NCBI GenBank assembly: GCA_021786095.1
Contig: JAJYNX010000042.1
Span: 1-35,954 of the forward strand
Source of the DNA: Actinomycetes bacterium
Lineage (GTDB): Bacteria; Actinomycetota; Acidimicrobiia; Acidimicrobiales; RAAP-2
Length of the DNA stretch: 35,954 nucleotides
Direction of reading: 5' to 3'
Under the pieces are notes generated by a model, which was given only the letters and a program-made list of their open reading frames with translations, did no database searches and was not told the origin of the DNA. Position numbers and translations under genes: made by a program. Shown here one piece after another: positions 18,922 to 28,389 of this stretch. Each line of letters starts with the position of its first letter. Position 1 is the stretch's first letter.

Positions 18922-20168
18922 ACGCGCGCCGCCTCACCGGATCCACGTTCGCCGCCCTGCGCGTGCGCAACTTCCGTCTCTACTTCATCGGCCAGCTCAT
19001 CTCGGTGTCGGGCACGTGGATGCAGTCAGTCGCCCAGGGGTGGCTGATCCTCCAGATGACGGGCTCCTCGGTGGGCCTTGGCGTCGCCGTCGCCCTGCAG
19101 TACGTGCCGATGCTGCTGCTCGGCTTCTACGGCGGGCTCGTCGTCGACCGCCACGAGAAGCGCCGCATCCTCTACGTCACCCAGTCGAGCGCCGGCGTGC
19201 TGGCCCTCGGGCTGGCGATACTGGTCGGCACCGGCCACGTGCGCGTCGACGAGGTCTACGGCTTCGCCCTGTTGCTCGGCATCGTCAACCTCTTCGACAC
19301 GCCCGCCCGTCAGGCCTTCGTCCAGGAGATGGTGGGCCGCGACCTGATCACCAACGCGGTCAGCCTCAACAGCGTGCTGATGAACGCCGGCCGGCTCATC
19401 GGTCCGAGCGTCGCCGCGATCTTCATCGCGGTCGCGGGCATGGCGTCGTCGTTCTACGCCAACGCCGTCTCCTTCGCCGCGGTGATCGTCGCGTTGGCCA
19501 TGATGCGCGCCGAGGACTTCGTGCCGATGGCCACCGTCGAGCGGGCGCGCGGCCAGATCATGATCGGGCTGCGCTACGTGCTGCGCACGGTGCTCGTGCG
19601 CGACGTGGTGCTCGCCGTGGCCGTGGTCGGCACCTTCGCCTTCAACTTCACCGTGACGCTGCCGCTGCTGGCGCGCACCACCTTCCACCAGCACTCGGCG
19701 GCGCAGTACGGGCTGCTGATGTCGGCGATGGGACTCGGGGCGGTCCTCGGGGGGCTCTTCGTCGCCCGGCGCTCGCGCGCGACGCCGCGCCTGCTGGCGA
19801 TCCTCTCGCTCGGCTTCGGGGGGTTCATGACCCTGGTCGCGCTGGCCCCGTCGCTGTGGTGGGCCGCCGTCGCCCTGGTGCCGACGGGGGCGTTCTCGAT
19901 CGCCTTCGCGGCGACCGCCAACGCGACCCTGCAGCTCAACTCGAGCCCCGAGATGCGCGGTCGAGTGATGAGTCTCTACGGCACGGCGTTCCTCGGGACG
20001 ACGCCGATCGGGGCGCTGGCCGTCGGCGCGCTCGTCGGGGCGACCAATCCGCGGGTGGGTCTCCTGGCGGGTGCGGTGCTGACCCTCGCGGTGGGGGCGT
20101 GGCTGGTGAGCGTGCGCACTCGACGCGAGGCGCCCGCGAGCGAGCTGGTCGAGAACTACGCGGGCTGA
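18918..20168 (+). CDS. MFS transporter, EntS-like exporter
   Basis: 416 aa, about twelve membrane helices, of the MFS_3 (enterobactin-exporter-like) group. The N-terminus FAALRVRNFRLYFIGQLISV, then GTWMQSVAQGWLIL, and the 2-3 loop GGLVVDRHEKRRIL (variant of GxxxDRxxRR) are typical; NLFDTPARQAFVQEMVG and SPEMRGRVMSLY are conserved in the group. It begins at the GTG 18918 overlapping the marR stop, so it is the pump controlled by MarR. Exports an unknown small molecule or siderophore-like compound. Its last 13 bases overlap the convergent acyl-CoA dehydrogenase gene. Confidence 0.92.
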   Translation: MNARRLTGSTFAALRVRNFRLYFIGQLISVSGTWMQSVAQGWLILQMTGSSVGLGVAVALQYVPMLLLGFYGGLVVDRHEKRRILYVTQSSAGVLALGLAILVGTGHVRVDEVYGFALLLGIVNLFDTPARQAFVQEMVGRDLITNAVSLNSVLMNAGRLIGPSVAAIFIAVAGMASSFYANAVSFAAVIVALAMMRAEDFVPMATVERARGQIMIGLRYVLRTVLVRDVVLAVAVVGTFAFNFTVTLPLLARTTFHQHSAAQYGLLMSAMGLGAVLGGLFVARRSRATPRLLAILSLGFGGFMTLVALAPSLWWAAVALVPTGAFSIAFAATANATLQLNSSPEMRGRVMSLYGTAFLGTTPIGALAVGALVGATNPRVGLLAGAVLTLAVGAWLVSVRTRREAPASELVENYAG

Positions 20169-21388
20169 GGGGCTGGCTCCTTGGGCAGTCCCAGGGCCCG
20201 TTCGCCAATGATGTTGCGTTGGATCTCGGCGGTGCCACCCCAGATCGTCTCGGAGCGGCTGAAGAAGAACGATCCCTGCAGGTCCGACACGGGGTAGTCG
20301 GCGCGGCCTCGCCGGCTGCCGGCCAACATCCCCTCGCTGGAGCCGGTCCCGGTGAGCACCTGGGCGTCCATCCCCAGGATGTCCATGGCCAACTCCATCG
20401 TCGCGCGGTGGGCCTCGGACCAGAACATCTTGTTGCACGCGCCCATGCGCGCGGCGTCGTGCGTGTTGCGCAGGGCGTCGGTCAGCGAGCGGTAGCCGTT
20501 GATCTGCATGATCTTGATCGTCGACCACGAGCGCACCAGCGCGTCGCGCACCCGCCGGTCGTCCAGGCGACCACGGTGGCGGGCCTCGTCGACGATCACG
20601 TCCCACTCCTTCAGGAATCGCCGGTAGCCGGTCGTCGAGGAGGCGCCGCGCTCGAAGCCCAGGGTGGTCATCGCGACCTTCCACCCGTTGTTGACGCCGC
20701 CGATCACGTTGTCGCGCGGGCAGCGGGCGTTGGTGAAGAAGACCTCGTTGAACTCGGCCGTGCCGTCGATCTGGGTGATCGGTCGCACGTCGATCCCGGG
20801 CTGGCGCATGGGGACCAACAGGTAGCTGATCCCGGCGTGGGCCGGAGCGGAGGGATCGGTGCGCGCGAGGAGAAAGACGTAGTCCGCGTGCTGGGCCTGG
20901 GTGGTCCAGACCTTCTGGCCATTGATGATCCACTCGTCGCCGTCGAGCACGGCGCTGGTCGACAGGCTCGCCAGGTCCGAGCCCGAGTTCGGCTCGGAGA
21001 ATCCCTGGCACCAGGTCGTGGTGCCGCGCAGGATCCCCGGCAGGAACTCGCGCTTCTGCTCCTCGGTGCCCCACTGCAGGATGGTGGGGCCGACCAGGGT
21101 ATCGCCAAAGAAGTCGGCGCGCAGGGGCGCGTTGGCGCGCGAGAACTCCTCGGTGAGCACGACCTGCTCGAGCAGGCTGAGGCCCCGCCCGCCGTACTCG
21201 ACCGGCCAGCCGGCGCAGATCCAGCCGCCGGTGTAGAGGGCCTCGTTCCAGGTGCGGTTGAACTCGCGTCGTTGCTCCTCGTTGAGCGAGAAACCCGGTT
21301 CGCCCCAGCCGGAAGGGAGGTTTGTCTCGAGCCAGGCGCGCACGTCGCGGCGGAACTCGTCGGTCTCGGGGGGGTACGTGAGGTCCAT
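20156..21388 (-). CDS. Acyl-CoA dehydrogenase (FadE-like)
   Basis: 410 aa flavoprotein of acyl-CoA beta-oxidation. FAD/substrate text: WCQGFSEPNSGSDLASL, then KVWTTQAQHADYVFLLAR, and the C-terminal WGGTAEIQRNIIGERALGLP. In short-chain enzymes the catalytic Glu sits in YEGTSEIQR; here it is WGG, as in many actinobacterial FadE proteins that act on steroid or branched chains, so the base must be elsewhere or supplied by a partner subunit. No partner FadE is adjacent. ATG at 21388, six bases after TACGCT. A long loop (EWDVIVDEARHRGRLDD) is typical of this branch. Confidence 0.93.
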   Translation of the reverse strand: MDLTYPPETDEFRRDVRAWLETNLPSGWGEPGFSLNEEQRREFNRTWNEALYTGGWICAGWPVEYGGRGLSLLEQVVLTEEFSRANAPLRADFFGDTLVGPTILQWGTEEQKREFLPGILRGTTTWCQGFSEPNSGSDLASLSTSAVLDGDEWIINGQKVWTTQAQHADYVFLLARTDPSAPAHAGISYLLVPMRQPGIDVRPITQIDGTAEFNEVFFTNARCPRDNVIGGVNNGWKVAMTTLGFERGASSTTGYRRFLKEWDVIVDEARHRGRLDDRRVRDALVRSWSTIKIMQINGYRSLTDALRNTHDAARMGACNKMFWSEAHRATMELAMDILGMDAQVLTGTGSSEGMLAGSRRGRADYPVSDLQGSFFFSRSETIWGGTAEIQRNIIGERALGLPKEPAPQPA

Positions 21389-21394
21389 AGTCGC

Positions 21395-21400
21395 AGCGTA
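21395..21400 (-). promoter_or_regulatory. -10 hexamer of acyl-CoA dehydrogenase gene (leaderless type)
   Basis: TACGCT on the minus strand, exactly six bases before the ATG at 21388. Confidence 0.55.
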
Positions 21401-21450
21401 CTCACTGGTAGCGCCGCGCCCGCGCGTCGCGGCGGGGGACGGGCGCCACG

Positions 21451-21456
21451 TAAGGT
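21451..21456 (+). promoter_or_regulatory. -10 hexamer of glycosyltransferase operon (leaderless type)
   Basis: TAAGGT exactly six bases before the GTG at 21463. Confidence 0.55.
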
Positions 21457-21462
21457 TGGGAG

Positions 21463-22833
21463 GTGCCCCGGAGCCTCGCGACGACAGTGGCCGCGACGCG
21501 CGCGTCGTGGCGGCGCTCCCAGTCCCTCGTCACGCCCCCCGCGAGACCGGCGCGTCCCCCGCGTCCCGGTGGGTACCGCGTGGCCTTCCTGGTCTACCGG
21601 GGCAATCCGCGCTGCGGCGGCCAGGGCGTCTACACCCGCCACCTCACGCGCGAGCTCGTGCGCCTCGGCCACAGTGTCGAGGTGTTCTCCGGCCCGCCGT
21701 GGCCCGAGTTGGACGAGGGGGTGGGCTTCACGCCCGTGGTGGGCCTGGACCTGTACCGCGATCCGGACCCCTTCCGCATACCGGCGCTGCGCGAGTTTCG
21801 TGGGTGGGCCGACGTGGTCGAGTTCGCGACCATGCTGGGCGCCGGCTTCGGCGAGCCACTGGCGTTCTCGATGCGCGCGTGGCGTCACCTGCGCCGGCGG
21901 CGCAGCGACTTCGACATCGTCCACGACGACCAGTGCATGGGGTGGGGCATCGCCCGCCTGCATCGTGCGGGCTGGCCGCTGCTCGAGACGCTGCACCACC
22001 CGATCACCGTGGACCGCGCCATCGCCCTGGACCACGCCACGACGTGGCGAGCGCGACTGACCACGCGGCGCTGGTTCGGCTTCTTGCGAATGCAGACGCG
22101 GGTCGTGCGCCACCTGCCGGCGGTGCTGACGGTCTCGCACAACTCGAAGAAGGACATCCACGCGCAGATGGGCGTCCCCCTGGATCGCCTCACCGTGGTC
22201 CCGGTGGGGGTGGACCACGAGGTGTTCCGGCCCTACGACGACGTCGTGAAGCGACCGGGGCGGCTCATGGTCACCTCGAGCAGCGACGTGCCCATGAAGG
22301 GGCTCGTCCCCCTGCTCGAGGCGATCGCCAAGCTGCGCGCCGAGCGCGACATCGAGCTCATCGTCATCGGCCAGCCCCGTCCCGGCGGGCGCGTGGCCCG
22401 CACCCTCGAGCGGCTGGGCCTGGCGGACGTGGTCACGACCGTCAGCGGCGTGAGCGACGAGGAACTGGCTCGCCTCTACGGCGAGGCCGAGGTGGCGATC
22501 GTGCCCAGTCTCTACGAGGGGTTCTCCCTGCCGGCGATCGAGGCGATGAGCTGCGCGGTGCCGGTGGTCGCGACCACCGGCGGGGCGCTGCCCGAGGTGG
22601 TGGGCACCAGTGGCGAGACGGGGCTCCTGGTCGAGCCGAATGACCCCGAGGCCCTGGTGGTGGCGATCCGGCGCCTGCTCGACGACCCGGCACTGCGCGC
22701 GCGCCTGGGCGCCAACGGGCGCGAGCGCGTGCGCGAGCGCTTCACCTGGGAGGTCACGGCGCGCGGCACGGCGGCCTGCTACGACGCGATCGTGCGCCAC
22801 CGTCCCCTGCCCGCCGCCATGTTCTTCGACTGA
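21463..22833 (+). CDS. GT4-family glycosyltransferase
   Basis: 456 aa GT-B enzyme using a nucleotide-sugar donor. After an Arg/Pro-rich N-terminus the first Rossmann half begins VAFLVYRGNPRCGGQGVY; the donor half has SSSDVPMKGLVPLLEA, and the retaining-GT4 signature is PSLYEGFSLPAIEAMSCAVPVV, with EGFSLPAIE carrying the two donor-binding glutamates (E-x7-E). FDIVHDDQCMGWG lies in the acceptor half. First gene of a tight operon: 16 bases to the methyltransferase, which itself overlaps the toroid gene. GTG at 21463 follows TAAGGT by six bases. Donor and acceptor are unknown; an envelope glycan or glycolipid is the best guess. Confidence 0.92.
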   Translation: MPRSLATTVAATRASWRRSQSLVTPPARPARPPRPGGYRVAFLVYRGNPRCGGQGVYTRHLTRELVRLGHSVEVFSGPPWPELDEGVGFTPVVGLDLYRDPDPFRIPALREFRGWADVVEFATMLGAGFGEPLAFSMRAWRHLRRRRSDFDIVHDDQCMGWGIARLHRAGWPLLETLHHPITVDRAIALDHATTWRARLTTRRWFGFLRMQTRVVRHLPAVLTVSHNSKKDIHAQMGVPLDRLTVVPVGVDHEVFRPYDDVVKRPGRLMVTSSSDVPMKGLVPLLEAIAKLRAERDIELIVIGQPRPGGRVARTLERLGLADVVTTVSGVSDEELARLYGEAEVAIVPSLYEGFSLPAIEAMSCAVPVVATTGGALPEVVGTSGETGLLVEPNDPEALVVAIRRLLDDPALRARLGANGRERVRERFTWEVTARGTAACYDAIVRHRPLPAAMFFD

Positions 22834-22849
22834 TGGTGCCGTCCGAGCG

Positions 22850-23569
22850 ATGCTGACCGCCGACTACGACCGACTGGGGCTGGTTCGCGGGGACGTGGTG
22901 CTGGACCTGGGCTGCGGCTTCGGGCGCCACGCCTTCGAGGCGGCGCGGCGCGGGGCGCACGTGGTGGCCCTGGACGCGGGCCGGGCCGAGGTGGAGGGAG
23001 TGGCCGCCGTCTTCGCGGCCATGACCGACGCGGGGGAGATCTCGGCGCGCGACGTGGCCGCCGCGGTCGTGCAGGGCGACGCGCTGCACCTTCCCTTCGC
23101 CGACGCCACGTTCGATCGCGTGATCTGCTCCGAGGTGCTCGAGCACATCCCCGACGACCGCGCGGCGATGGCCGAGCTGACGCGCGTGCTGCGCCCGGGG
23201 GGGACGATGGCCATCACGGTGCCGCGCTTCGGTCCCGAGCTGATCAACTGGGCGCTCTCCGACGAGTACCACATGGTGCCCGGCGGCCACGTGCGCCTCT
23301 ACCGACGCCGCGTGCTCGAGCAGCGCCTGGTCGCGACGGGTCTTCGGGTGAGGGGGCACCACTACGCGCACGGACTGCACAGCCCCTACTGGTGGTTGAA
23401 GTGCCTCGTGGGCACGACCAACGAGGATCACCCCCTGGTGCGCTCCTACCACCGGCTGCTGGTGTGGGACATCGTCAAGGCGCCGTGGCTGACGCGCACC
23501 GCCGAGCGGATGCTGGCGCCGGTGATGGGAAAGTCCCTGGTCGTCTACCTGACTCGCGTGACGCCGTGA
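22850..23569 (+). CDS. Class I SAM-dependent methyltransferase
   Basis: 239 aa. The SAM-binding motif I is VLDLGCGFGRHAFEAAR near residues 17-33; the acidic end of beta2 is in VALDAG, motif II/III in FDRVICSEVLEHIPDD, and the post-motif loop is RVLRPGGTMAITVPRFGPE. The aromatic, His-rich C-terminal part (HYAHGLHSPYWWLKCL) probably forms the acceptor site. Start: ATG 22850, the only plausible start in frame after the glycosyltransferase stop. Stop overlaps the toroid GTG by four bases. Looks like a UbiE/Coq5-type fold, but context argues for a sugar or lipid-sugar acceptor instead of a quinone. Confidence 0.9.
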   Translation: MLTADYDRLGLVRGDVVLDLGCGFGRHAFEAARRGAHVVALDAGRAEVEGVAAVFAAMTDAGEISARDVAAAVVQGDALHLPFADATFDRVICSEVLEHIPDDRAAMAELTRVLRPGGTMAITVPRFGPELINWALSDEYHMVPGGHVRLYRRRVLEQRLVATGLRVRGHHYAHGLHSPYWWLKCLVGTTNEDHPLVRSYHRLLVWDIVKAPWLTRTAERMLAPVMGKSLVVYLTRVTP

Positions 23570-24669
23570 GCGTCGAGACGGCCGCGCTGGCGGGCGTCGA
23601 GGGCGTCATCACCGCCGAGCAGATCGCCGCCAGCGCCTCGTGGCTGGCCGGGCTGCAGAGCCGCGACGGCGCGATCCCGTGGTTCACCGGCGCCCACTGC
23701 GATCCCTGGAATCACGTGGAGTCGGCCATGGCCCTGACGGTGACCGGTCACGTCGACGCGGCCCGGGCCGCCTACCAGTGGTTGGCCCAGCGCCAGCTGG
23801 TCAACGGGGCGTGGTTCAACTACTACCGGGGTCGCGACGTCGTGGACGCGCGCCTGGACACCAACGTCGTGGCCTACGTCGCGACGGGCGCGTACCACTA
23901 CCTGCTCGCCACCGGCGACGTCGACTTCGTCGCGCGTCTGTGGCCCCACGTGCGCGCCGCGATCGACTTCGTCTTCTCGTGGCGACTGAGCGACGGCACG
24001 GTGCGCTGGTCCCTCGACGGCGCCGGGCGCGCGGAGGGCTACGCCCTGTTGACGGGCTCGTCGTCGATCTACCACGCGGCGTGTTGCGCGCTGGCCCTGG
24101 GCGAGCGCCTGGGCGAGGACGTCGAGCGGTGGCGCGATCCGACGGCGGTCCTCGGCCACTGCGTGGCCCGCCACCCCGGCGCCTTCGCGCCGAAGAACGA
24201 GTTCGCCATGGACTGGTACTACCCGGTCCTGAGTGGCGCGGTGACGGGCCCGGACGCCGAGCGTCGTGTCGACGAGGGGTGGGAGCGTCACGTCATGGAG
24301 GGCCTCGGGGTGCGCTGCGTGTCGACGAGTGACTGGGTGACGGCGGCCGAGACCGCGGAGTGCGCGATCGCCCTGGACGCGATGGGGCGCCCCTCACTCG
24401 CGCTGGACGTCTTCGCCCTCACCACCCGCCATCGCCGGGACGACGGCGCCTACTGGACGGGTCTGGCCTACCCCCAGTCGCGTACCTTCCCCGACGCGGA
24501 GGTGACCTCCTACACGGCCGCGGCCGTCATCCTCGCGGCCGACGCCCTGACCTCGTCGTCGGGCGCGTCGGACCTGTTCCGTCACGCGGCCCTCGCCCGC
24601 CCGCCGGAGCGACCCGAGGCCGGCTGCCCGCAGCGCGAGTCACGACGCGCGTCGCTCGAGCACTCGTAG
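23566..24669 (+). CDS. Alpha/alpha-toroid protein (usually annotated prenyltransferase)
   Basis: 367 aa. Homologues are often labelled prenyltransferase/squalene-oxidase-like because of an alpha/alpha barrel. The sequence shows repeating helical hairpins with conserved aromatic patches: GAIPWFTGAHCDPWNHVESAMAL early, NGAWFNYYRG, TNVVAYVATGAYHYLLATG, and MDWYYPVLSGAVTG. There is no squalene-cyclase DxDD motif, and the WF/DPW pattern with TGDVDFVARLWPHVRAAIDF looks more like a six-hairpin glycosidase. I favour a sugar-acting or sugar-binding toroid over prenyl transfer. GTG start overlaps the methyltransferase stop by four bases. The last ~20 residues overlap the convergent methyltransferase gene by 30 bp and are probably unstructured. 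Confidence 0.8.
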   Translation: MSVETAALAGVEGVITAEQIAASASWLAGLQSRDGAIPWFTGAHCDPWNHVESAMALTVTGHVDAARAAYQWLAQRQLVNGAWFNYYRGRDVVDARLDTNVVAYVATGAYHYLLATGDVDFVARLWPHVRAAIDFVFSWRLSDGTVRWSLDGAGRAEGYALLTGSSSIYHAACCALALGERLGEDVERWRDPTAVLGHCVARHPGAFAPKNEFAMDWYYPVLSGAVTGPDAERRVDEGWERHVMEGLGVRCVSTSDWVTAAETAECAIALDAMGRPSLALDVFALTTRHRRDDGAYWTGLAYPQSRTFPDAEVTSYTAAAVILAADALTSSSGASDLFRHAALARPPERPEAGCPQRESRRASLEHS

Positions 24670-25278
24670 CGAGCCCCGCGCGGCGAGTGGCGCGAAGCGC
24701 CCGCTCGCCACGGCGGCGCAGTAGATCTCGTAGGGGGGGCGCCCCCCGTCGGCGGGATCGGGGAAGACGTCGTGGATCAGGAGTCGCCCCCCGGGGACGA
24801 CCTTGGGCGTCCACAGCTCGTAGTCGTCCCACGCCACCCGCGCCCCGTGGCCGCCGTCGATGAACAGCAGGTCGAGGGGTTGGGAGAAGTGGCGCGCCAC
24901 CACCGCGGAGGGTCCGACGAGCCCGATCACCGTCGACTCGAGGGCGGCGCGCGCGATCGTGCGCTGCCAGGACGGCAGGGTATTGAGCCGCCCGTCGAAC
25001 GGGTCGACCAGCGTGGCGTCGAAGTGCTCCCAGCCCGGCTGGTTCTCCTCGCTGCCGCGGTGGTGGTCGAGCGAGTACAGCACGCTGGCGCTGGCCTCGG
25101 CGGCCGCACCGAGGTAGAGCGCGGACTTCCCGCACCAGGCTCCGATCTCGAGCCAGGTCCCGCCCGTGACCCGATCGCCGTGGGCGCGGGCGTGCTCGTA
25201 GAGCGCGAGGCCCTCGTCACGTGGCATGAAGCCGGGCGTCGCCTCGGCCAGCGTCAGCAGCTCGTCGACCCGGCTCAC
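24640..25278 (-). CDS. Class I SAM-dependent methyltransferase (Methyltransf_24-like)
   Basis: 212 aa. Motif I is WLEIGAWCGKSALYLG (about residues 42-57), followed by VLYSLDHHRGSEENQPGWEH, then DLLFIDGGHG and GGRLLIHDVFPDPADGGRPP. The paired aspartates and histidines (DHH, DGGH, HD) suggest a metal-assisted O-methyltransferase of the macrocin/cephalosporin-hydroxylase-like type. I recall close actinobacterial relatives with the same DHHRGSEENQxGWEH text beside the toroid and GT4 genes, which supports one pathway. GTG start overlaps the GDT1 stop (GTGA); it is the last gene of the aminopeptidase-GDT1 operon on this strand and overlaps the toroid gene tail-to-tail by 30 bp. Confidence 0.85.
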   Translation of the reverse strand: MSRVDELLTLAEATPGFMPRDEGLALYEHARAHGDRVTGGTWLEIGAWCGKSALYLGAAAEASASVLYSLDHHRGSEENQPGWEHFDATLVDPFDGRLNTLPSWQRTIARAALESTVIGLVGPSAVVARHFSQPLDLLFIDGGHGARVAWDDYELWTPKVVPGGRLLIHDVFPDPADGGRPPYEIYCAAVASGRFAPLAARGSLRVLERRAS

Positions 25279-25868
25279 GAGGTGAAGGCGGTGACCAGGG
25301 TGTAGACGCCCAGCGCGGCGAAGATCACGCCACCGGCGAGGCGGATGCGCTCCAGGGGCACCACCCGCTGCAGCAGCCGTCCGCCGTAGGCGCCCACGAA
25401 GGAGACCAGGATCATGGCCAGCGACGCCGCGATGAAGACGTCGAGGGGTTGGTGGGTCTTGGCGCTGAAGTTGGCGGCCTGGATCTGGGTCAGGTCGCCG
25501 AACTCGCCGACGAAGATGACCCCGAAGGCCGTGGCCATCTCGCGACGCCGCGAACCGGGCGCCTCGCGGCGCGCCTCGCGCTGCCCGGTCTCCTCCTCGC
25601 GGCGCTCGGGCACGAGCAGCAGGTACGCCGCGCCGCCGAGGAAGAGCAGCGCGACGACGACGTCCTTGACCCGCGTCGGCAGCAGCGTCAGGAGCCCTCC
25701 GGCGAGCACCGCCAGCCCCATCTGGACGACGAAGGCGCCCGACGCGCCGATCGCGATCGAGAGCGGTCGCGATCGCGTGGACATCACGACCGTCGCGATC
25801 ATGGTCTTGTCCGGCAGCTCGAGCAGGAACATCAGGGCCATGATGCCCAGGAACGTCCCCACGTTCAC
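25275..25868 (-). CDS. GDT1/TMEM165-family (UPF0016) cation transporter
   Basis: 197 aa membrane protein made of two homologous three-helix halves. Each half carries the family's E-x-G-D-(K/R)-(T/S) ion-binding motif: ELPDKT at 17-22 (Pro in place of Gly) and EFGDLT at 122-127 (Leu in place of Lys/Arg). A charged cytoplasmic loop (residues ~88-110) joins the halves. Relatives export Mn2+ or exchange Ca2+/Mn2+ for protons. The gene lies 16 bases after the aminopeptidase and overlaps the methyltransferase start by four bases. No yybP-ykoY manganese riboswitch is possible in the 16-base gap. Confidence 0.9.
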   Translation of the reverse strand: MNVGTFLGIMALMFLLELPDKTMIATVVMSTRSRPLSIAIGASGAFVVQMGLAVLAGGLLTLLPTRVKDVVVALLFLGGAAYLLLVPERREEETGQREARREAPGSRRREMATAFGVIFVGEFGDLTQIQAANFSAKTHQPLDVFIAASLAMILVSFVGAYGGRLLQRVVPLERIRLAGGVIFAALGVYTLVTAFTS

Positions 25869-25884
25869 GACGAGCCGCCTCGCG

Positions 25885-28389
25885 CTAGAACTGCGAGCGG
25901 ATCGCCGTGGCGAAGGCCAGCCCGATGCGCAGTCGTTCCAGCTGCTGGGGGACGGTCGCGGGGTAGCCGCCGACCACCGGGTGCGCGACGTGGAACGCCT
26001 CCACCTCGGCGGCGAAGGCCGGGTCGCGGATGAAGGTCGGCACCCCGGCGGCCAGGCGCGAGTGGTGACTGGGTGAGAAGCGCGCCAGTGCCTCGTCCCA
26101 GCGTGACGTGAGGTAGCGCCACACGGCCGGCCCGGTCTGCTCGTTGCGCGTCAGCGCCATCAGCACGATCGGGGCGTCCTGGGGGCGGAACTCGTGGAAG
26201 CACCGTTCGGCCGCGTCCAGCGCGAGGCGCTCGTCACTGAACCCACCCAGGGCCGTGAGGTAGCGCATCTCCTCCTGGGGCGTCGGCGCGTGGCGGTAGC
26301 GCTCCAGGAAGGTCTCGTAGTCTCCGGGGTGGTTCTGGTCGGCCACGATGCGCAGGATGGTGGCGGCGAGGTCGCCGTCCATCTCGCCGGCCGTGAAGCG
26401 CCGGCGCGCCTCGGCGCGCACCGACTCGTCGCCGCCGGCGATCCCCAGCAGGCCGATGATGAGCGCTCGGGTCTGGGCGCGGAGCACGTCCTCGTCGGGC
26501 TGCCGGTCCCAGCCGAGCCGCGCGAGATGGGGGGCCGCGAGCGCGGTGACCTGGTGGGCGAGCGTGGTGCGCGCGGGTTCGTCCAGGGCCCGGCGGACCA
26601 TGTCGAGCGCCGTCGCGACGAAGTGCCAGGGCGTGGGCTCGTCCTGCTCGCCCAGTCCCGAGGCCGTCGTGTAGAACTCCGCCCAGGTGAGCTGGCGGGC
26701 GAAGAGCGCGGCCCAGGCGTCGGCGAGCAGCGTGGCTCGCTCGAGCTCGTCGAGCTCGCCCACGCGCGGCGCCAGGGCGGCCAGCGCCGCCGCGTCGTAG
26801 CGCGAGCGAAAGACGCCCGAGCCGCCGGCGTTCACGACGACCGGGGGGTGGTCGTCCACGCGCACCGGCTCGTCGCCGAGCAGGTGGCGCGACGGGGCCC
26901 CACCCTCCAGCGAGCGGGTCATCACGGGTACGAGCCAGCGATCGCCGATGGCGCCCTTGTGGGCCGGGTCGCCGAAGACGAACGGCTGCTGGCGCAACTC
27001 GCCGTCCGCGAGGGTGACCAGCGGGTGGCCGCCCTGGAGGATCCAGGTGTTCATCATGTCGCGCACCGGCTGGCCGGACACCGACTCGAGGGCGTCCCAC
27101 AGGTCCGTCGTCACGGTGTTGGCGTAGCGGTGATCGAGCAGGTAGCGCCGGATCCCGTCGCGAAACACGGTCTCGCCGAGGTACTGCTCCGCCATGCGCA
27201 GCACCGAGCCGCCCTTCTCGTAGGTCAGCGAGTCGAACATGCCCTGCGTGTCGTTGGGTGACAGAACCGGGTACTCGATGGGTCGCGTCGACGCGAGGCC
27301 GTCGATGTGCAGGGCGAGGTCGCGCATCACGATCTGGTCGGCCCAGATGCGCCAGGCGGGTCGGAAGGCGTTGGTGCAGCGCAGCTGCATGAAGGTGGCG
27401 AAGGCCTCGTTGAGCCAGATGCCCTCCCACCACTCCATCGTCACGAGGTCGCCGAACCACATGTGGGCGATCTCGTGGTGCACGACCTCGGCCACCCGCT
27501 GGATCTCGGCCAGGGACGCGGTCGCCGGGTCGACCAGCAGGGCCGTCTCGCGGTAGGTGATGCACCCGAGGTTCTCCATCGCCCCGAACGCGAAGTCCGG
27601 GATCGCGACCATGTCCAACTTCTCGCCGGGGTAGGGGATGGCGAAGTAGTCACTGAAGTGGCGCAGGGCGAACGCGCCCGCCTCGAGGGCCAGATCGGCG
27701 AGGTGTCCCTTGCCGCGCGGGTAGACCACGCGCAGGGGGACCCCGTCCACGTCGGTCGCGTCCGTGTGCTCGAAGGGCCCCACGACGAAGGCGACCAGGT
27801 ACGTCGACATCACCATGGTGGGGGCGTAGCTGAGGCAGCGCTGGCCGTTGCCCAGGTCGGTGTTGCTGGTCTCGGGGGAGTTGGCGTAGGCGTTGAGGTG
27901 GCTTGGAATCGTGAGGTTCACCTGGAAGGTGGCCTTGAAGGAGGGCTCGTCCCAGCAGGGGAAGGCCTGGCGCGCGTCGGAGTGCTCGAACTGGGTGGTC
28001 GCGATGGTCTGGGTGACGCCGTCGGGGTCGACGAAGGTGGAACGGTAGAAGCCGGACAGTTGGTCGTTCAGCACGCCGGTGTAGGCGATCTCGAGGGTGG
28101 CCGGGCCGAGGGGCAGCGTCGCGTCGAAGACGAACGTGGCCGTCTCGTAGGTGGAGTCGTGGAGGGTGTCGGTGGAGCGCACGCTCGTGCCGTCCGCGGT
28201 GAGCGTGGCCGCGCCGAGCTCCAGCGCCTTGGCGTGCAGGGTGATGCGATCGGTGGACTGCGTGATCACGACGTCGATTTCGACGCGTCCCGCGAAGGTG
28301 GCGCCCTCGAGGTCGGGGGTGAGGAAGAGTCGGTAGGCCGAGGGGACCACGCTGCGGGCAAGACGATAGGGGTTCGGGGAAGAAGTCAT
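25885..28389 (-). CDS. pepN: M1-family aminopeptidase (PepN-like)
   Basis: 834 aa zinc metallopeptidase releasing N-terminal residues from peptides. The exopeptidase motif GAMEN lies at 269-273, the zinc site HEIAH at 305-309 with third ligand Glu328 (in WLNEAF), followed by the long C-terminal ERAP1_C-like helical domain. Length fits actinobacterial PepN. Cytosolic: no signal peptide. ATG 28389 lies eight bases after TAGGGT. It heads a three-gene operon with the GDT1 transporter and the methyltransferase; the reason for this grouping is unclear. Confidence 0.95.
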   Translation of the reverse strand: MTSSPNPYRLARSVVPSAYRLFLTPDLEGATFAGRVEIDVVITQSTDRITLHAKALELGAATLTADGTSVRSTDTLHDSTYETATFVFDATLPLGPATLEIAYTGVLNDQLSGFYRSTFVDPDGVTQTIATTQFEHSDARQAFPCWDEPSFKATFQVNLTIPSHLNAYANSPETSNTDLGNGQRCLSYAPTMVMSTYLVAFVVGPFEHTDATDVDGVPLRVVYPRGKGHLADLALEAGAFALRHFSDYFAIPYPGEKLDMVAIPDFAFGAMENLGCITYRETALLVDPATASLAEIQRVAEVVHHEIAHMWFGDLVTMEWWEGIWLNEAFATFMQLRCTNAFRPAWRIWADQIVMRDLALHIDGLASTRPIEYPVLSPNDTQGMFDSLTYEKGGSVLRMAEQYLGETVFRDGIRRYLLDHRYANTVTTDLWDALESVSGQPVRDMMNTWILQGGHPLVTLADGELRQQPFVFGDPAHKGAIGDRWLVPVMTRSLEGGAPSRHLLGDEPVRVDDHPPVVVNAGGSGVFRSRYDAAALAALAPRVGELDELERATLLADAWAALFARQLTWAEFYTTASGLGEQDEPTPWHFVATALDMVRRALDEPARTTLAHQVTALAAPHLARLGWDRQPDEDVLRAQTRALIIGLLGIAGGDESVRAEARRRFTAGEMDGDLAATILRIVADQNHPGDYETFLERYRHAPTPQEEMRYLTALGGFSDERLALDAAERCFHEFRPQDAPIVLMALTRNEQTGPAVWRYLTSRWDEALARFSPSHHSRLAAGVPTFIRDPAFAAEVEAFHVAHPVVGGYPATVPQQLERLRIGLAFATAIRSQF

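Follow-up and report, generated by a model that had tools for sequence, protein, structure and literature searches.

A four-gene cluster for the 3-O-methylmannose polysaccharide (MMP), comprising manT, pmeT3, mmpH and meT1, has been described in mycobacteria (M. hassiacum and M. smegmatis), and two of its products, the mannosyltransferase ManT and the endomannosidase MmpH, have been characterised (PMC9883506); MeT1 is cited in the same paper as characterised earlier. The role put forward for MMP in the literature is the binding of long acyl chains and the buffering of fatty-acid metabolism; modulation of the type I fatty-acid synthase (FAS-I) is proposed in PMC4555173. The distribution survey in PMC9883506 covers mycobacteria, eight related species and Hoyosella. 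Here, a homologous cluster was analysed in a 35,954-nucleotide stretch of DNA (contig JAJYNX010000042.1, hereafter the window) from an Actinomycetes bacterium of the order Acidimicrobiales, the source genome of which comprises 2,104,417 bases in 117 contigs at 96.4% completeness. Homologues of all four genes of the mycobacterial cluster are present in the window:

21463–22833, + strand: ManT, homologue of the GT4 α-(1→4)-mannosyltransferase (7qsg match; start codon uncertain)
22850–23569, + strand: MeT3, putative 3-O-methyltransferase, a class I S-adenosylmethionine-dependent methyltransferase (start ATG; Methyltransf_11; pMeT3 position)
23566–24669, + strand: MmpH, homologue of the MMP α-(1→4)-endomannosidase, an (α/α)6 barrel or toroid (start GTG; 7qsj match)
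24640–25278, − strand: MeT1, homologue of the MMP 1-O-methyltransferase, convergent with MmpH (6g7d match; Methyltransf_24)

The list of open reading frames and the sequence place ManT, MeT3 and MmpH in that order on the + strand, with MeT1 facing them on the − strand. ManT and MeT3 are separated by 16 bases, MeT3 and MmpH overlap by 4, and MmpH and MeT1 overlap by 30 bp at their 3' ends; frames, sequence and arithmetic all agree with the coordinates and spacings given in an initial annotation of the window. Longer frames that overlap the cluster (for example, 19016–22060) are most likely high-GC shadow frames. Within ManT there are in-frame GTG starts at 21463, 21487 and 21580, and the region homologous to the solved ManT starts at residue 36. 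Pfam searches identified GT4/GT1 domains in ManT, Methyltransf_11 in MeT3 (E = 2.1e-22) and Methyltransf_24 in MeT1.

Three of the four proteins have close solved relatives. The toroid protein matched 7qsj, methylmannose polysaccharide hydrolase, over residues 7–366 of 367 with 45.7% identity (E = 1.7e-93), and the facing methyltransferase matched 6g7d over residues 4–210 of 212 with 51.2% identity (E = 6.9e-60); the entry title of 6g7d reads ‘Methyltransferase domain protein’, and we take it to be MeT1. That entry is not named in PMC9883506, in which 7QSG is given as ManT; the title of the latter entry is ‘D-inositol 3-phosphate glycosyltransferase’, and the window ManT matched it over residues 36–444 of 456 with 50.7% identity (E = 1.8e-126). 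When the residue positions of PMC9883506 were mapped by alignment, the window ManT was found to keep Gly15, His142, Lys240, Asp293, Glu313, Gly314, Phe315, Leu317 and Glu321, and thus all four GT-B catalytic residues (His142, Lys240, Glu313 and Glu321), with Leu291 replaced by Val. Across 142 genomes His142, Lys240, Glu313, Gly314, Phe315 and Leu317 are invariant and Glu321 is kept in 141; position 293 is variable, being Asp in 93. For MeT3, a sequence search of the structure database found no close solved relative. The protein is 53–59% identical to the genes at the same position in Rhodococcoides corynebacterioides (locus L108) and in the loci of family f78, and the pMeT3 assignment was made by comparison with these genes rather than with the M. 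hassiacum pMeT3 sequence. A MeT3 homologue was present in 19 of 21 relatives searched. Overall, ManT, MmpH and MeT1 of the window are 46–51% identical to their mycobacterial counterparts and the key catalytic residues are common to both, the differences being an Acidimicrobiales host, a genome in which no FAS-I domain was found, and the MmpH substitutions described below.

By homology, the window cluster would be a known system in a new lineage, to which the published self-recycling cycle can be transferred, and the four genes very probably make and recycle a cytoplasmic MMP. In this cycle ManT would add α-(1→4)-linked mannose from GDP-mannose onto a short methylmannoside primer, MeT3 would methylate each added mannose at O-3, and MeT1 would place a 1-O-methyl cap at the reducing end, while internal cuts made by MmpH in mature chains would free primers from which a new round can start. 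In mycobacteria the ManT, MmpH and MeT1 steps have been shown (PMC9883506); here they are predicted from homology, conserved residues and the order of the genes. The MeT3 step is inferred both here and in mycobacteria. The initial annotation had deduced a sugar transfer, two methylations and a trimming step, and had likened the locus to mycobacterial methylated-polysaccharide loci. That logic proved right and the likeness is real, since the genes are homologues of those of the MMP cluster. Its further view that this was an undescribed system without a described product does not stand, as the MMP cluster had already been described in PMC9883506.

The breadth of the MMP cluster in the class and the phylum is new. 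Two samples that share genomes were searched, one of the class (n = 296, MmpH at E up to 1e-20) and one of the phylum (n = 396, E up to 1e-15), and MmpH was found in 144 and 65 genomes, respectively. For the window's order, the class sample held 94 genomes with MmpH, and two members of the order were among the 20 misses listed; a reading of 94 of 96 holds only if that list is ordered by kinship, as 132 further misses are not listed. Loci were then taken from all 34 phylum-only genomes and from every class genome with MmpH except G261, in which the match is split (143 of 144). The order ManT-MeT3-MmpH was present in 137/138 testable class genomes and in 33/33 phylum-only genomes, that is in 170 of 171, the exception being G214. 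A facing MeT1 was present at 115 of 143 class loci (76 directly, 39 with a gap; 3 had MeT1 elsewhere, 16 had none in reach and 9 were cut) and at 21 of 34 phylum-only loci (17 directly, 4 with a gap; 2 elsewhere, 10 none in reach, 1 cut). Among 80 named loci, which were retrieved by their MmpH and overlap with the sampled genomes, all 80 had ManT-MeT3-MmpH and 75 the facing MeT1; those with the closest MmpH are mostly metagenome-assembled genomes (MAGs) titled Acidimicrobiaceae, Acidimicrobiales or ‘Actinomycetes bacterium’. Because the order recurs in 137/138, 33/33 and 80/80 loci, the arrangement is not due to chance. Locus L108 of R. corynebacterioides and 9 of 11 MmpH genomes of family f78 share the four genes and their arrangement with the window (MeT1 is out of reach in G342 and G567), and all 11 f73 genomes with MmpH have ManT-MeT3-MmpH. 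These data bear out the earlier suggestion that the four protein types are linked across actinobacteria; a lack of linkage beyond close relatives had been named beforehand as the outcome that would count against it, and the neighbourhood survey found the linkage to extend well past them. No publication on the cluster in Acidimicrobiia was found, which is weak evidence because the literature search mostly excluded subscription papers.

The MmpH proteins of family f3 (L213–L216) are only 33–35% identical, and L213, the locus of G214, has no adjoining ManT and MeT3; these loci are a divergent branch of the MMP system. Three loci titled Acidobacteria or Saccharibacteria (L068, L072 and L086) carry the same cluster, with MmpH 60–65% identical to that of the window, and are probably misnamed MAGs.

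Next, the MmpH active site was compared across the loci, with the published residue positions mapped by alignment and sequences of fewer than 300 residues (9 of 284 loci) dropped. The proposed catalytic residues of MmpH are Asp47, as acid candidate, and Glu262, as base; the D47A and D50A substitutions each strongly impaired the enzyme, and the catalytic acid was left undecided (PMC9883506). The window MmpH keeps Asp47, Trp49, Asn101, Thr163, Met215, Tyr219, Glu262 and Glu265. It falls outside the mycobacterial-type subgroup (Asp50, Phe102, Trp315) and belongs to an Asn50 group. Asp47 is present in 139/139 class and 32/33 phylum-only sequences and Glu262 in 138/139 and 33/33, the class exception at Glu262 being L269, a site with two partial matches and probably a frameshift. 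Position 50, by comparison, is Asn in 139/139 class sequences, and Asp in 26 and Asn in 7 of the 33 phylum-only sequences. Position 102 is other than Phe in all 139 class sequences and position 315 is Tyr in 91 of them. A 69-row MmpH tree (midpoint root; every fourth class row; three long rows, L214, L269 and L239, of which L239 is itself one switch) places three changes at position 50, at least two of them forced by well-supported branches. Because position 50 switches between Asp and Asn while Asp47 is nearly fixed, the sequence comparison favours Asp47 rather than position 50 as the catalytic acid, and this natural switching bears on the question left open by the structural paper. Alternatively, the Asn50 MmpH may be an inactive enzyme. 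The sole exception at Asp47 is L238 (G458, a genome 83% complete), with Asn at both 47 and 50, which may reflect decay of this copy, a fault in the assembly or another mechanism.

Several observations weigh against assigning the cluster to MMP. The product in Acidimicrobiia is predicted from homologues only, and the pMeT3 activity is putative even in mycobacteria. Three pocket residues of the window MmpH differ from the assayed enzyme (Asp50Asn, Phe102Val and Trp315Tyr); because of these changes, and because D50A strongly impaired the assayed enzyme (PMC9883506), there may be differences in activity, specificity or chain length. The sequence retrieved around the cluster held no MeT1 at 16 of 143 class loci (13 of them with more than 3 kb of flank) or at 10 of 34 phylum-only loci. 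Finally, with respect to supply of the GDP-mannose donor, the ManC β-helix domain had no match in the window's own genome, in a search that is uninformative, since the domain matched 9 of 14 control genomes and Corynebacterium glutamicum was not among them.

Judged by database names, the toroid would be a prenyltransferase or a terpene cyclase. In Pfam it has a sub-threshold match to SQHop_cyclase_N. In order to compare folds, an AlphaFold model of the window MmpH was built from a 27-row alignment (mean predicted local distance difference test score 91.9). Its best match in the PDB is 7qsj, with a TM score of 0.91 by query length in Foldseek and, in a Z-scored comparison, Z 55.8 and a root mean square deviation of 1.3 Å over 346 residues. 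Terpene cyclases enter the Foldseek list at rank 7, with drimenyl diphosphate synthase, and a squalene-hopene cyclase holds rank 50; none is among the 50 entries of the Z-scored comparison. The next-best structure there is dextran dextrinase (Z 35.8), which together with glucodextranase, GH63 and GH94 has the fold in common with the window MmpH (Z about 28–36) at just 11–15% identity. DxDD is the motif of squalene-hopene cyclases, and none is present in the window MmpH, in which both residues proposed as glycosidase acid and base are conserved. The model supports a glycosidase-type (α/α)6 barrel, not a prenyltransferase, and the squalene-cyclase reading, which now has next to no likelihood, was rejected on the 7qsj sequence match, the fold and the absent DxDD. 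The initial annotation had called the toroid glycosidase-like, in spite of its prenyltransferase name, from the same lack of DxDD and from Trp/Asp/His patches and hairpin periodicity, and had set a prenyltransferase fold beforehand as the result that would speak against this; sequence and model both led to 7qsj instead.

The same annotation had offered an envelope glycan or glycolipid as the target, mannosylated, methylated and trimmed by these enzymes. Envelope loci often contain GT4 enzymes and methyltransferases, and some relatives have neighbours of envelope type: among 177 genomes, 21 (9 families) carry a GtrA-type membrane protein downstream of the cluster and 27 (11 families) an apolipoprotein N-acyltransferase upstream of it. 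However, these neighbours are confined to part of the order, the window cluster being flanked by an acyl-CoA dehydrogenase and a GDT1-type antiporter instead, and for the closest solved relatives the target is intracellular MMP (PMC9883506). An envelope target is thus highly improbable and was rejected on these two grounds, the homologues pointing to an intracellular methylmannose polysaccharide. A closer rival is a related but different polymer in Acidimicrobiia, one that differs in its length, its decoration or its pattern of methylation and that MmpH cuts in a different register. The class-wide MmpH pattern at positions 50, 102 and 315 and the variability of ManT Asp293 would fit such a polymer, and an acetylated form is made by Streptomyces griseus (PMC9883506, PMC4555173). 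Nevertheless, the other donor- and catalysis-site residues of ManT are kept and the same genes occur in the same order at 46–51% identity, and we consider a different polymer rather unlikely. The acetylated polymer of S. griseus (AMMP) is likewise a methylmannose polymer outside mycobacteria; no acetyltransferase was found among the neighbours identified, as named from group representatives. Methylglucose lipopolysaccharide (MGLP), another polymethylated α-(1→4) polysaccharide for which binding of acyl chains has been proposed (PMC4555173), differs from the MMP system in sugar and genes. Elsewhere in the window's own genome (G000:C22:35347–36114, − strand; L285) there is a match to glucosyl-3-phosphoglycerate synthase, at 264.5 bits against a cut-off of 262 bits; two stop codons fall within the matching region or its end.

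Descriptions of MMP have mainly concerned mycobacteria, where it is proposed to tune FAS-I. PF08354, which we take to be the FAS-I domain, was searched in the phylum sample only, and was found in 16 of 396 genomes, all outside the window's class. In 14 of these the match lay in an open frame of more than 3,000 codons, as expected of FAS-I, and one of 14 control genomes (C. glutamicum) was positive. Of the 65 MmpH genomes, 12 carried the domain (11 in family f78, one in f105), compared with 4 of the 331 others (Fisher p 1.6e-7); this co-occurrence was rejected as independent evidence of a link, 11 of the 12 coming from one family. The domain was not found in 53 of the 65, including the window's own genome, which has a FabH domain as expected of type II fatty-acid synthase (FAS-II), and all 30 further class members that have MmpH in this sample. 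Where FAS-I is absent, MMP cannot act through it. Streptomyces use FAS-II, so MMP without FAS-I is already implied by S. griseus; what is new is the scale, which makes the purpose of MMP testable outside mycobacteria. What merits further work is the residue pattern and the missing FAS-I. We tentatively suggest, as a possibility that falls short of probable, that nearly all Acidimicrobiales have MMP as an ancient cytoplasmic polymer whose function is independent of FAS-I, that the Asn50 MmpH is a class-wide variant with different cutting and sizing, and that the polymer serves FAS-II, acyl-CoA handling or a stress role.

Proteins neighbouring the cluster were grouped over 177 genomes, with only group representatives named, and in the search for a fifth conserved gene none but MeT1 spanned the whole sample. 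Ten proteins lie between MmpH and MeT1 at eight loci (two amidase_3, one each of MFS, DUF1214, DUF1800, DUF1501, aldehyde dehydrogenase and P450, and two without a family). The recurring groups are acyl-CoA thioesterase, apolipoprotein N-acyltransferase, GtrA, D-Tyr-tRNA deacylase, short-chain dehydrogenase, GSDH, GH1, an MgtE-type domain and M1 peptidase, with one further group (29 genomes, 8 families) having no family name. The cluster of the window is flanked by:

20156–21388, − strand: acyl-CoA dehydrogenase, divergent from ManT
25275–28389, − strand: GDT1-type antiporter and M1 aminopeptidase, following MeT1

The acyl-CoA thioesterase group is represented in 33 genomes from nine of the order's families (for example, L253:569–1453), always downstream on the MmpH strand. 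Among testable genomes it is present in 31 of 133, and in 31 of 41 within its nine families; it was beside the cluster in 0 of 5 genomes of the window's family and in none of other classes. The neighbour group concerned (51 genomes) also held frames overlapping MeT1 (22 of 57). In the window's own genome an acyl-CoA thioesterase domain is found on another contig, and the gene downstream of the cluster is regarded as no more than a lead. Of 69 testable named loci, most of them titled Acidimicrobiaceae, 67 have the acyl-CoA dehydrogenase divergent from ManT; it occupies this place in 8 of 134 testable loci of the sampled genomes, four of them (L210, L238, L241 and L258, in other families) with a distant homologue at 24–27% identity; it is treated as a family-level neighbour. 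Both enzymes act on acyl-CoA, which suits the proposed MMP role. These neighbourhoods are limited to related families and, like those of the GtrA and lipoprotein N-acyltransferase groups, may be inherited. On the other side of the cluster, the GDT1-type antiporter is kept in 69 of 74 and the M1 aminopeptidase in 68 of 72 testable named loci.

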